Shown here: positions 53,703 to 57,049 of the stretch, piece by piece
Position numbering within the stretch: the first letter of the stretch is position 1
How the letters are laid out: every line of letters begins with the position of its first letter
Assembly: GCF_000769405.2 (NCBI RefSeq)
Contig: NZ_CP053439.1
Span: 3,162,001 to 3,226,000, forward strand
Direction: 5' to 3'
Source of the DNA: Rhizobium brockwellii
Lineage (GTDB): Bacteria > Pseudomonadota > Alphaproteobacteria > Rhizobiales > Rhizobiaceae
Length of the DNA stretch: 64,000 nt
Position numbers and translations under genes: made by a program
Notes under the pieces: model-generated
Database searches by the model: none
Told to the model about the DNA's origin: nothing
Seen by the model: only the letters and a program-made list of their open reading frames with translations

Positions 53703-54170
53703 TCACATCTTCGCCAGCAACTCCGCCAACTGGTCCGCAGCCTTGCCCCATCCTTCGTGGAAGCCCATCTTCTCGTGCGCCTCCTTGTCCTCGGCGCGCC
53801 AGTGCAGCGCCTTGGCCGTATATTTCGTGCGACCGTTGCCGAGATCTTCGAGCAGGATGACGCCAGTGAAGAAAGGTTTTTCGGACGGCACCCAGGCGCT
53901 GGTATAGGCATCGGTGAAGACGATCTTCTCGTTCTCGATGACCTCGAGATAGACGCCGCGGTTCGGATACTGATTGCCCTCGGGATCCTGCATGACGACA
54001 ACGCTGGAGCCGCCGGGGCGGACGTCGAGCTGGGCTTCCGCGACACCCCAGGGACGCGGCACGAACCACTGCTTCAGCAGATCAGGATTAGTCCATGCCT
54101 TGTAGATCTTCTCGCGCGGCGCGTCGAATTCGCGAACGAGGACGAGTTCATGTTGCGTGCTGGCAGTCAT
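53703..54170 (-). CDS. SRPBCC/AHSA1-type small-molecule-binding protein
   Basis: A 155-residue START-like domain: LVREFDAPREKIYKAWTNPDLLKQWF, PGGSSVVVMQDPEGN, GVYLEVIENEKIVFTDAY and the C-terminal helix MGFHEGWGKAADQLAELLAKM. This AHSA1/CalC-like family often accompanies ECF42 sigma factors. Its own promoter carries TGTCGG-N17-CGTC, identical to the site upstream of the sigma-factor operon, so it is likely a direct ECF42 target. It lies 89 bp after the sigma gene. Confidence 0.88.
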   Translation of the reverse strand: MTASTQHELVLVREFDAPREKIYKAWTNPDLLKQWFVPRPWGVAEAQLDVRPGGSSVVVMQDPEGNQYPNRGVYLEVIENEKIVFTDAYTSAWVPSEKPFFTGVILLEDLGNGRTKYTAKALHWRAEDKEAHEKMGFHEGWGKAADQLAELLAKM

Positions 54171-54222
54171 GTCGACATCTCTCCATTTGAATGAAACCTG
54201 TTTCCTGTCAGGTTGTTACAAG

Positions 54223-54249
54223 GACGTGTCGAAGTCCCCCATTCCGACA
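54223..54249 (-). promoter_or_regulatory. ECF42-type promoter of the AHSA1 gene
   Basis: On the minus strand, TGTCGG (54249-54244), 17 bases, then CGTC (54226-54223). The same two boxes with the same spacing occur upstream of the DGPF-sigma operon. The form is close to TGTCGA/CGA-TC boxes reported for ECF42 sigma factors. The gap holding it is only 89 bp, so it is a dedicated promoter for the downstream gene. Confidence 0.65.
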
Positions 54250-54259
54250 GCATACCGAA

Positions 54260-55519
54260 TTATCTTGCGACCGGCTGTGCGGCTTCTTCCTGCAGCTTGT
54301 CGATCTGTCGGCGGATATGGGCGGCCTCGGCCGCCGAATGGGCAAGCGCAATGGCGCGGTCGAAAGCCTCGCGCGCCTGGCCTGTCAGGCCAAGCTGCTT
54401 CAGCAGCCCGCCCCGCAGGCCATGATAATAGAAATAACCTCCGAGCTTTTCGCCGAGCGGATCGATGAGGTCGAGCGCATCCTGCGGACCTTGGAGCTTG
54501 GAGACGACGACGGCGCGGTTGAGCGTGATCACGGGCGACGGCTGGAGACGCTCCAGCGCGCGATAGAGCAGATCGATCTCCACCCAGTCGGTATCCTCGG
54601 CGCGTTTTGCGCGGGAGTGAACAGCGGCGATGGCCGCCTGAATCTGATAGGGGGCGGGCTTGCGATGGCGCAACGCCTTGTCGAGCAGCGCCAACGCCTC
54701 ATTGATATATGGCTGGTTCCAAAGCGACCGGTCCTGATCTTCGAGCAGCACGATCTCATCTCCAGCGTTGAAGCGTGCCGGCCGGCGCGAGATCTGCAGA
54801 AGCATGAGCGCAAGCAGCCCCATCAGCTCCGGTTCGGACGGGAAGATATGCAGCATCAATCGCGCCAGCCGGATCGCTTCGTCGCTGAAGGCAGCCGCCT
54901 CATGCCTGGGATCGGCCTGGCTGTAGCCCTCGTTGAAGATCAGGTAGATCATGGTGCTGACGATCGAGAGCCGTTCGGCCCTTTCCTCAGGGCTCGGTGT
55001 TTCGAAAGGCAAGCCGGCTTTCGCTACCCGCGCCTTGGCCCGCGTGATGCGCTGTTCCATGGCGCTTTCCGACACCAGGAAGGCCCGGGCGATCTGCGGC
55101 ACCGAAAGGCCGGAGACGATGCGCAGCGCCAGCGCGATCTGTTGGGTCGCGGGTAGATCGGGATGGCAGCAGATGAACAGCAGCCGCAGGATATCGTCGC
55201 GATAGTGGGAATCGTCCAGCCGCTCGACGATATCGCTTTCGGCATCCTCGGTATCGGAGATGACGTCCTCATCCGGCAGAGCCTGGATCTTCGCCCGTTT
55301 GCGCACCGCGTCGATGCCGCTGTTGCGGCCGACGAAGATGAGCCAGGCTGTGGGATCACGCGGTGGCCCTTTCTCCGGCCATGTCCGGATCGCCCTCAGA
55401 CACGCTTCCTGAAACGCCTCTTCCGCGGTATCGAGATTGCGGAAGTAGCGCAGCAGCGCGCCGAGCGCCTTCGGGCGGGCCGATGCAAGCGCGAGGTCGA
55501 TCCAGGCAATGTCTGTCAT
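54260..55519 (-). CDS. ECF42-type RNA polymerase sigma factor with TPR-like C-terminal extension
   Basis: 419 residues. Region 2 is RYFRNLDTAEEAFQEACLRAIRTW, region 4 ALALRIVSGLSVPQIARAFLVSESAMEQRI. A ~230-residue helical, TPR-like extension follows (LSIVSTMIYLIFNEGYSQ, LALMLLQISRRPARFNAGDEIV, VITLNRAVVVSKLQGPQDALDLID). This long extension and the adjacent DGPF-domain gene define the ECF42 group, which has no classical anti-sigma factor. Its start overlaps the DGPF stop by 4 bp. Confidence 0.92.
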   Translation of the reverse strand: MTDIAWIDLALASARPKALGALLRYFRNLDTAEEAFQEACLRAIRTWPEKGPPRDPTAWLIFVGRNSGIDAVRKRAKIQALPDEDVISDTEDAESDIVERLDDSHYRDDILRLLFICCHPDLPATQQIALALRIVSGLSVPQIARAFLVSESAMEQRITRAKARVAKAGLPFETPSPEERAERLSIVSTMIYLIFNEGYSQADPRHEAAAFSDEAIRLARLMLHIFPSEPELMGLLALMLLQISRRPARFNAGDEIVLLEDQDRSLWNQPYINEALALLDKALRHRKPAPYQIQAAIAAVHSRAKRAEDTDWVEIDLLYRALERLQPSPVITLNRAVVVSKLQGPQDALDLIDPLGEKLGGYFYYHGLRGGLLKQLGLTGQAREAFDRAIALAHSAAEAAHIRRQIDKLQEEAAQPVAR

Positions 55520-55890
55520 GATGAAGCATCTCCGGGCCTGAAGACGTAGAAAGGCCGAATTTCGTAAGAGGTGGAACCTGGATTGACGGATGAAAGCTGC
55601 TTCGAGAAGGCGATCGCCTCGTCGAGCGTTTCAAAGTCGACGACATAGAAGCCGAGAAGCGCCTCTTTCGTTTCCGCAAAAGGCCCATCGATGACCAAGG
55701 GCTCATCCTTGCCCTTGCGCACCGTGGTCGCAGCCGTCGTTGGCATCAGTCGGCCGACGGGGCCGAGCTTGCCAGATGCGGCAAGCGGCTCCTGCACGGC
55801 GTAGAGTTTCTCCATGACGGCAGCCTCCTCCTCCTTGGTCCAGGCGAAAACGGTTTCCTCATGGGCGTAACAAAGGATTGCATAAAGCAT
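55516..55890 (-). CDS. YCII/DGPF-domain protein, partner of ECF42 sigma factor
   Basis: 124 residues. The family motif DGPF is at 68-71 in VIDGPFAETKEALLGFYVVD. It begins MLYAILCYAHEETVFAWTKE, typical of the DGPF (YCII-related) family genetically linked to ECF42 sigma factors. The role is unknown; such proteins are usually the main ECF42 targets. It is first in the operon and carries the TGTCGG-N17-CGTC promoter. AGAGGAGTGAGCA precedes the ATG. Confidence 0.92.
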   Translation of the reverse strand: MLYAILCYAHEETVFAWTKEEEAAVMEKLYAVQEPLAASGKLGPVGRLMPTTAATTVRKGKDEPLVIDGPFAETKEALLGFYVVDFETLDEAIAFSKQLSSVNPGSTSYEIRPFYVFRPGDASS

Positions 55891-55911
55891 TGCTCACTCC
55901 TCTTTCCGAAT

Positions 55912-55938
55912 GACGAAGGAGTACCGCCTCGGCCGACA
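55912..55938 (-). promoter_or_regulatory. ECF42-type promoter of the DGPF-sigma operon
   Basis: On the minus strand, TGTCGG (55938-55933), 17 bases, then CGTC (55915-55912), 22 bp before the DGPF start. Identical boxes and spacing to the AHSA1 promoter, consistent with autoregulation by the sigma factor. Confidence 0.65.
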
Positions 55939-56092
55939 GCGTGCATCAAAAAATTATTGATGGAGAAATGAGCAATTCGATTGGAGAGCCACAGTTGGTC
56001 AAGCTTCCGGTGCCATCTCGCCCGTCATGGAGTTGCCCTTTTTAGCCTTAAGAGCTTCGGGCGCCTCCATCACCTTTTCATTCGAGAACCAC

Positions 56093-57049
56093 ATGAACAA
56101 GCCTCGAACACGTCTCATTGCCCTCGCCGCCCTCATGCTGCCGATGAAAACAGCCCTCGCCGCCTCCGCACCCGAAAACTTCCTCTATACGAGCGCCGGC
56201 GAGCTGGAATCGGTGAAGACGCAGCTTGCGCGCCCGGATATCTCAGGCGTCCAAATCGTGTACAACTGGAAGGGCCTCGAGCCTGCCAAGGGCCAATATG
56301 ATTTCTCGCAGATCGAGAGGGATCTGGCGCTCACCCAAAGCCTGAACAGGAAGCTCTTCATCCAGGTCCAGGACCGCTTCTTTGATCCGAAGGCGCGCAA
56401 TATCCCCGACTATATGCTGGCTGATCCGGAATATGACGGCGGCCTCACCGCTCAGTTCGACAATCCCGGCGAAAACAAGCCGGTCGGCTGGGTGGCGCAA
56501 CAATGGAACCCTGCCGTACGCGAGCGTTATCAGGCGCTGCTGAAGGCGCTGGCCGAAAAGTTCGACGGCAAGGTCTACGGCGTCAATCTGCCGGAAACGG
56601 CGATGGATCTCGACCCCAAGCACGAACCGAAAGGCTATAGCTGCGATGCCTATTTCCAGGGCGAGATGGCAAACCTCGCCTTTGCAAGGAAGGTCTTCGC
56701 CAAGTCGATGGTGGTGCAATACGTCAACTTCTGGCCCTGCGAATGGGAAAACGACCATAATTATATGGGCCGCCTTTTCGACTTCGCGGCGAAGAACAAT
56801 GTCGGCCTCGGCGGCCCCGATATCGTGCCCAATCGCAAGGCGCAGATGAAGAACTCCTACCCCTTCTTCAACAAGTACAAGGGCAAGCTCACCTATGTCG
56901 GCATGGCCGTGCAGGAGCCGACGCTGACCTACAAGAACCCGGCGACGAAGAAGCCCTTCACCAAGGTCGAATTCACCGCCTTTGCTAGGGATTATCTCGG
57001 CGCGAACGTGATCTTCTGGAGCACGGCGACGCCGTGGTTGAAGAAATAG
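56093..57049 (+). CDS. Secreted TIM-barrel-like protein (possible glycoside hydrolase)
   Basis: 318 residues with a signal peptide ending near residue 23 (LPMKTALA). ISGVQIVYNWKGLEPAKGQYDFSQIERDL is a typical barrel opening of GH5/GH42-like proteins. Further strands are KLFIQVQDRFFD, VYGVNLPETAMDLD (candidate acid/base Glu) and YVGMAVQEPTLT (candidate nucleophile Glu). I cannot assign a GH family. It is divergent from the DGPF operon but shows no ECF42-type motif, so it is probably independent. Confidence 0.7.
   Translation: MNKPRTRLIALAALMLPMKTALAASAPENFLYTSAGELESVKTQLARPDISGVQIVYNWKGLEPAKGQYDFSQIERDLALTQSLNRKLFIQVQDRFFDPKARNIPDYMLADPEYDGGLTAQFDNPGENKPVGWVAQQWNPAVRERYQALLKALAEKFDGKVYGVNLPETAMDLDPKHEPKGYSCDAYFQGEMANLAFARKVFAKSMVVQYVNFWPCEWENDHNYMGRLFDFAAKNNVGLGGPDIVPNRKAQMKNSYPFFNKYKGKLTYVGMAVQEPTLTYKNPATKKPFTKVEFTAFARDYLGANVIFWSTATPWLKK

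Follow-up and report, generated by a model that had tools for sequence, protein, structure and literature searches.

A Rhizobium ECF42-type sigma factor with conserved promoter-like TGTCGG-N17-CGTC sites at its own locus and predicted targets dispersed through the genome

The window analysed here, i.e., a 64,000-nucleotide stretch of the Rhizobium brockwellii genome, encodes an ECF42-type sigma factor that is probably the Rhizobium counterpart of RpoE10 of S. meliloti. It would act at promoters of the form TGTCGG-N17-CGTC and turn on the adjacent AHSA1 gene, about nine genes scattered over the genome, and perhaps the operon to which it belongs. What the sequences establish is the presence and conservation of the boxes, their position before genes here and in relatives, their common flanks, and a G/A difference from the paralogs. 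For the relative S. meliloti, the promoter pair and the downstream target are already in print, with autoregulation in doubt. Neither a wider ECF42 regulon in rhizobia nor a G/A split was found described in the literature searched, in which subscription journals were mostly uncovered.

Gene arrangement at the ECF42 locus

Three genes follow one another on the minus strand. A YCII-family (DGPF) gene of 124 aa (55516..55890; Pfam PF03795, E 2.3e-21) overlaps by 4 bp the gene of a 419-aa ECF42-type sigma factor with a C-terminal extension (54260..55519; Pfam Sigma70_r2, Sigma70_r4_2, and DUF6596), and a gap of 89 bp separates the sigma gene from an AHSA1/SRPBCC-family gene of 155 aa (53703..54170; Pfam PF08327, E 1.2e-31). 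Sigma regions 2 and 4 are both present by Pfam, as expected of ECF42, and about 250 residues including DUF6596 lie C-terminal of region 4, a long extension as in ECF42. TPR-like repeats are a feature of the ECF42 extension; in the window factor, DUF6596 was the sole Pfam match in this part, with no TPR family at E 0.001. The domains and the YCII neighbour agree with the preliminary description of this DNA, which had named an ECF42-type sigma factor next to a DGPF gene. It had also noted that ECF42 factors lack a classical anti-sigma, in line with which no anti-sigma domain was found in the scanned neighbours (YCII, AHSA1, a luciferase-like monooxygenase, PadR, and one protein without a match); this check covered the scanned neighbour genes, small ORFs lying outside it. 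Divergent from the YCII operon, positions 56027-57049 encode a 340-aa protein that matched neither a Pfam nor an NCBIfam family at E 0.001.

A C-terminal extension of about 200 residues and a YCII-type neighbour are likewise described, in reviews, for ECF42 of Streptomyces venezuelae and ECF-10 of P. putida (PMC8999054, PMC9023288, PMC8103513). According to these reviews, the extension of ECF42 factors is essential and a probable protein-interaction sensor (PMC8999054; the same role is stated in PMC9023288), the YCII protein is a possible partner, and both the inducing signal and the interaction partner are described as unknown (PMC8999054).

Conserved promoter-like sites before YCII and AHSA1

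Predicted promoters of the form TGTCGG-N17-CGTC lie on the minus strand before the YCII-sigma operon (55912..55938) and, within the gap after the sigma gene, before AHSA1 (54223..54249). Both copies were found exact, as the preliminary description had reported; its distance of 22 bp to the DGPF gene was corrected to 21 bp, measured from the end of the site to the ATG, and its 89-bp gap before AHSA1 stood. The AHSA1 site ends 52 bp before the ATG of that gene. Transcription of the YCII operon is predicted to begin near 55903 if it starts about 9 nt after CGTC, and that of AHSA1 would begin near 54214 by analogy with SMc01149 of S. meliloti.

Conservation was followed in 110 related loci, i.e., 30 loci from a family-level draw and 80 named loci that come almost entirely from Rhizobium or unnamed Rhizobiales, the nearest named loci belonging to the R. 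leguminosarum group with sigma factors 96-97% identical. The YCII gene lies beside the sigma gene in all 110. The site before YCII is exact in 108/110 relatives and the site before AHSA1 in 76 of the 84 that have AHSA1; all ten exceptions (two at YCII, eight at AHSA1) are single-base differences, and one of the AHSA1 sites concerned (L045) carries TGTCGA. No AHSA1 gene was detected next to the factor in 17/30 family-draw loci, where only 1.5 kb of flank was covered, and in 9/80 named loci. The exact pattern has a chance rate of about 0.0002 per 100-bp stretch on one strand (from 30 sites in the 7.1-Mb genome), and a chance origin of both local sites is ruled out by this low genome-wide rate together with the conservation in relatives. 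Scanning the window with the relaxed pattern TGTCGR-N17-CGWC gave three more matches, which were taken as background. In six loci (L126, L127, L129, L130, L034, and L046), AHSA1 is separated from the sigma gene by about 0.5 to 1.5 kb and has nevertheless retained the exact promoter.

Relationship to S. meliloti RpoE10

The statements on S. meliloti made here refer to the accessible parts of Lang et al. 2018 (PMC6180224), where RpoE10 (SMc01150) is assigned to group ECF42 and Table 1 gives TGTCGG-N17-CGTC before SMc01151 (YCII), SMc01149, and SMb20475. As in the window, the order is YCII gene, sigma gene, and gene of a ligand-binding-domain protein (for SMc01149, hydrophobic-ligand binding is predicted), the motif precedes both the YCII gene and the downstream gene, and the sigma factor has a C-terminal extension, with no nearby anti-sigma gene reported in those parts. 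The S. meliloti locus differs in the glyoxalase-type SMc01148 that follows SMc01149. Gene order and promoters, rather than a comparison of the proteins, suggest that RpoE10 is the ortholog of the window factor.

Overexpression of RpoE10 raised six genes, four of them at least 2-fold, namely SMc01149-SMc01148 and SMb20475-SMb20474, at a modest log2 of 1.1 to 1.8; the start of SMc01149 lies 9 nt past CGTC by two methods (PMC6180224). Given this analogy and the conservation of its site, AHSA1 is a well-supported candidate target of the factor, as had been proposed from the local sequence.

Promoter-placed sites elsewhere in the genome and in other genomes

Promoter placement was defined as an intergenic position 5-100 bp before a same-strand gene, genes being predicted with a simple home-made codon-usage caller. 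By this measure, 10/30 exact N17 sites of the genome were called promoter-placed, and the count is 11 rather than 10 with the AHSA1 gene of the window (L014), which the caller missed; two of these sites are local and nine lie elsewhere in the genome. Called genes contain 14/30 exact sites. A genome-wide motif scan of the kind suggested in the preliminary description, run here with the exact pattern, thus has 11/30 sites at gene starts, also beyond the locus, but leaves 19/30 sites without promoter-like placement, so that the pattern by itself proves nothing. Raw whole-genome counts (N17 30, N16 76, N18 103) differ perhaps through a reading-frame effect; such counts are uninformative in one genome, and placement was used as the measure for this reason. 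As spacer controls, the first 30 of the 76 N16 sites and the first 30 of the 103 N18 sites were taken, and in both sets 0/30 were promoter-placed (Fisher p 5e-6).

The nine distal genes begin 30-54 bp past CGTC. By Pfam, they comprise SnoaL_3, two GST, Abhydrolase_1, AHSA1, two 3-dmu-9_3-mt (which we take to be of the PhnB type), RibD_C, and Glyoxalase. L021, one of these targets, shares 81% identity with the gene that directly follows the mapped SMb20475 promoter on pSymB; for one predicted distal target, activation of a relative is thus known from experiment.

In four other genomes with the factor, promoter-placed sites amounted to 9/31 (G029), 6/22 (G057), 8/36 (G071), and 9/26 (G104), the five local sites of G029, G057, and G104 being left out of these counts and the eight of G071 including the local YCII gene and the gene directly after sigma. 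Family genomes without a match to the factor gave 0/13 (G046), 0/13 (G027), 1/14 (G021), and 1/9 (G050). Pooled, this is 32/115 versus 2/49 (p 3e-4, with kinship ignored). The target families of this genome come back at such sites in the four other factor-bearing genomes: one PhnB-type target has orthologs in all five genomes, three more (the second AHSA1, the glyoxalase-type gene, and one GST) are orthologous targets in four genomes each, and the SnoaL and hydrolase targets have orthologs in three genomes each (lowest identity 42% and 37%, respectively). DoxX, DoxX_2, DUF1428, and another RibD_C are extra target families in the other genomes. A gene of G104 that shares 66% identity with the window's AHSA1 has kept the motif 34 bp before its start despite a distance of more than 1 Mb to the sigma gene.

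Motif density was surveyed in 121 genomes. It was 4.74 per Mb in the 39 genomes with the clade of the window factor versus 2.86 in the 66 without it (p 2e-10, related genomes not being independent), and the reversed pattern, used as a control, showed no difference (2.24 and 2.18). The genomes without the clade were of at least 3 Mb, some of them bearing other ECF42 paralogs, and the test leaves out ten genomes below 3 Mb as well as six whose homolog is intermediate (median 3.37).

Promoter flanks and leaders

The aligned promoters have in common an A/T tract, which precedes TGTCGG by about 10-20 bases; TGTCGG is followed mostly by A or C and then by A or T, and CGTC often by CTTG. In the window, these tracts lie on the minus strand at 55948..55958 (YCII promoter, conserved in relatives) and at 54258..54266 (AHSA1 promoter, partly within the end of the sigma gene). 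A flank weight matrix was trained on 180 distinct local promoters with the ten box bases ignored. Its median score was 1.2 for 40 other promoter-class sites and -31.5 for 77 in-gene sites of the same genomes, and the 49 sites in factor-free genomes scored -28 to -33 by class. T is the second base after CGTC in 38/40 promoter-class versus 21/77 in-gene sites. Two promoter-class sites of G029 (L345 and L352) have a background-like flank score, and four unassigned sites with scores above 3 may, by their flanks, be further targets.

The AHSA1 mRNA may form a small hairpin at its predicted 5' end (54195..54214, minus strand), for which the evidence is weak (z about -3.2 against mononucleotide shuffles); among related Rhizobiaceae its sequences differ and pairing is still possible. 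For promoter-class targets, the mean z of leader hairpins was -0.78 in the 22 leaders of at least 40 nt versus 0.07 in shorter ones, a trend only.

A purely local circuit, in which the factor drives its own operon and AHSA1 and the distal copies arose by chance, has to be weighed against the dispersed regulon. The two local sites are the most conserved of all, and RpoE10 targets in S. meliloti are few in the accessible parts of PMC6180224, where two operons are reported to respond at least 2-fold, whereas about nine distal sites are predicted here. Such a circuit is nevertheless hard to reconcile with distal sites that occupy gene starts much more frequently than the N16 and N18 controls, that have the flanks of the local promoters and recur before orthologs in other genomes, and that include one target with an RpoE10-activated S. 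meliloti ortholog; we regard it as very improbable. The regulon had been called self-contained in the preliminary description. This was rejected, as nine further promoter-positioned copies lie elsewhere in this genome and distal promoter-placed sites occur in other genomes too.

Across 79 named loci, conservation close to that of the boxes is also seen in the T-tract before the YCII promoter (55948-55958) and in parts of its spacer (within 55912-55938), a hint of an UP-like element or of a second, overlapping promoter. It is possible, though to us somewhat doubtful, that the YCII-sigma operon is not autoregulated and that the conservation upstream of it reflects mainly a housekeeping promoter overlapping the boxes, leaving AHSA1 and the distal genes as the sole ECF42 targets. 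This would fit the near box-level conservation of these parts, with a TTGATG-like element in the T-tract and a conserved TACTCC in the spacer, as well as the S. meliloti YCII gene SMc01151, which was not raised by RpoE10 and whose mapped start overlaps the motif at CGTC (accessible parts of PMC6180224). Against it, the ten box bases are exact in all but two of the 110 loci and remain so in distant family members, which show more variation in spacer and T-tract, and an upstream TTGA/C/T element occurs in only 0.32 of the family-draw YCII promoters. The earlier claim that the factor drives its own operon is not supported in that form: the boxes are conserved, but by analogy the S. meliloti results speak against a strong effect of self-activation.

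Sixth base of the -35 box

The preliminary description gives TGTCGA and CGA/TC as the boxes reported for ECF42, and with a TGTCGA consensus the factors of Streptomyces venezuelae and P. putida would differ from the window factor. TGTCGG had initially been understood as a -35 box changed at one base, and this did not hold, since the G is shared across one ECF42 clade and is found in published S. meliloti promoters; a local variant was rejected, TGTCGG being clade-wide in the relatives and in the tree. In a tree of 60 sampled factors, 22 G-site loci and 3 loci without an exact site formed one fully supported group, and 24 A-site loci fell outside it. In the outer part of the clade, 3/6 loci are without an exact motif before YCII, the near misses being L418 (one base off in the -10), L421 (one off in the -35), and L419 (two off).

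The genome itself encodes two further ECF42-type factors, 45% and 35% identical to the window factor. The former (L061, C1:1097969-1099147) is alike in architecture, with three YCII genes upstream, and differs, apart from its degree of identity, in having TGTCGA-N17-CGTC 36 bp before the first YCII gene and, in the recognition helix, A and V at the positions of the window factor's E155 and T159. Upstream sites with G and with A were sought for the family paralogs, and the exact sites found all have A; no exact TGTCGA site was found at the second paralog (L062) and, likewise, at several other paralog loci. Both kinds occur together in seven genomes (G000, G029, G040, G051, G067, G090, and G106). 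The L061 region (C1:1096469-1100647) contains two TGTCGA-type sites, one of which (C1:1100383-1100409) fits the pattern on both strands.

E155 and T159 of region 4.2 are invariant in 110/110 factors of the window's clade and are also present in three outer-clade G loci, and paralogs have A in 19/21 and V in 20/21 at the respective positions. By alignment to the solved sigma-H, both residues map to the helix around the conserved R-I-x-R, which is presumably the reader of the -35 element. As the G/A switch falls on one long branch (single origin), a causal role of E155/T159 in the G preference is inseparable from that of other fixed differences. Scanning the genome for TGTCGA-N17-CGWC gave 64 sites, the first 30 of which were examined; promoter-placed among these were sites before the paralog's YCII operon and three other ORFs, and none of these genes is in the TGTCGG set. 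A both-strand match to TGTCGA-N17-CGAC (L391, C1:820605-820632) lies 30 bp before a 135-aa ORF that is possibly a target of a paralog.

The paralog promoters being one base different, co-resident ECF42 paralogs might, alone or together with the window factor, read the TGTCGG promoters as well. We consider this unlikely, as G-site and A-site loci occupy separate parts of the tree (60 sampled loci), motif density tracks the clade of the window factor, and in S. meliloti it is RpoE10 itself that activates two promoters with TGTCGG (accessible parts of PMC6180224). G versus A at the sixth -35 base would rather separate paralogous circuits.

Proposed regulon and implications

In the reading preferred here, the window factor would respond to a signal, bind, and bring RNA polymerase to TGTCGG-N17-CGTC promoters in which an A/T tract precedes the boxes and CGTC is usually followed by CTTG. 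It would thereby switch on the adjacent AHSA1 gene and would also activate the roughly nine scattered genes (PhnB/glyoxalase-type, GST, second AHSA1, RibD-like, SnoaL, and alpha/beta hydrolase), and its own YCII-sigma operon is perhaps driven as well. The target families suggest the handling of reactive or foreign small molecules, and the factor may have a role in detoxification. Evenly balanced in our judgement is the wider proposal that a clade of Rhizobiaceae ECF42 factors made a single move from TGTCGA to TGTCGG together with helix changes (E155, T159), is thereby insulated from co-resident paralogs, and controls a dispersed set of about ten genes for small-molecule handling, the composition of which differs between genera.

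The approximately ten candidate targets from recurring enzyme families would provide clues to the role of ECF42 and reporters for an inducer search. The G/A split of ECF42 paralogs within the same genome may serve as a natural experiment on whether two sigma circuits can be insulated by one base.
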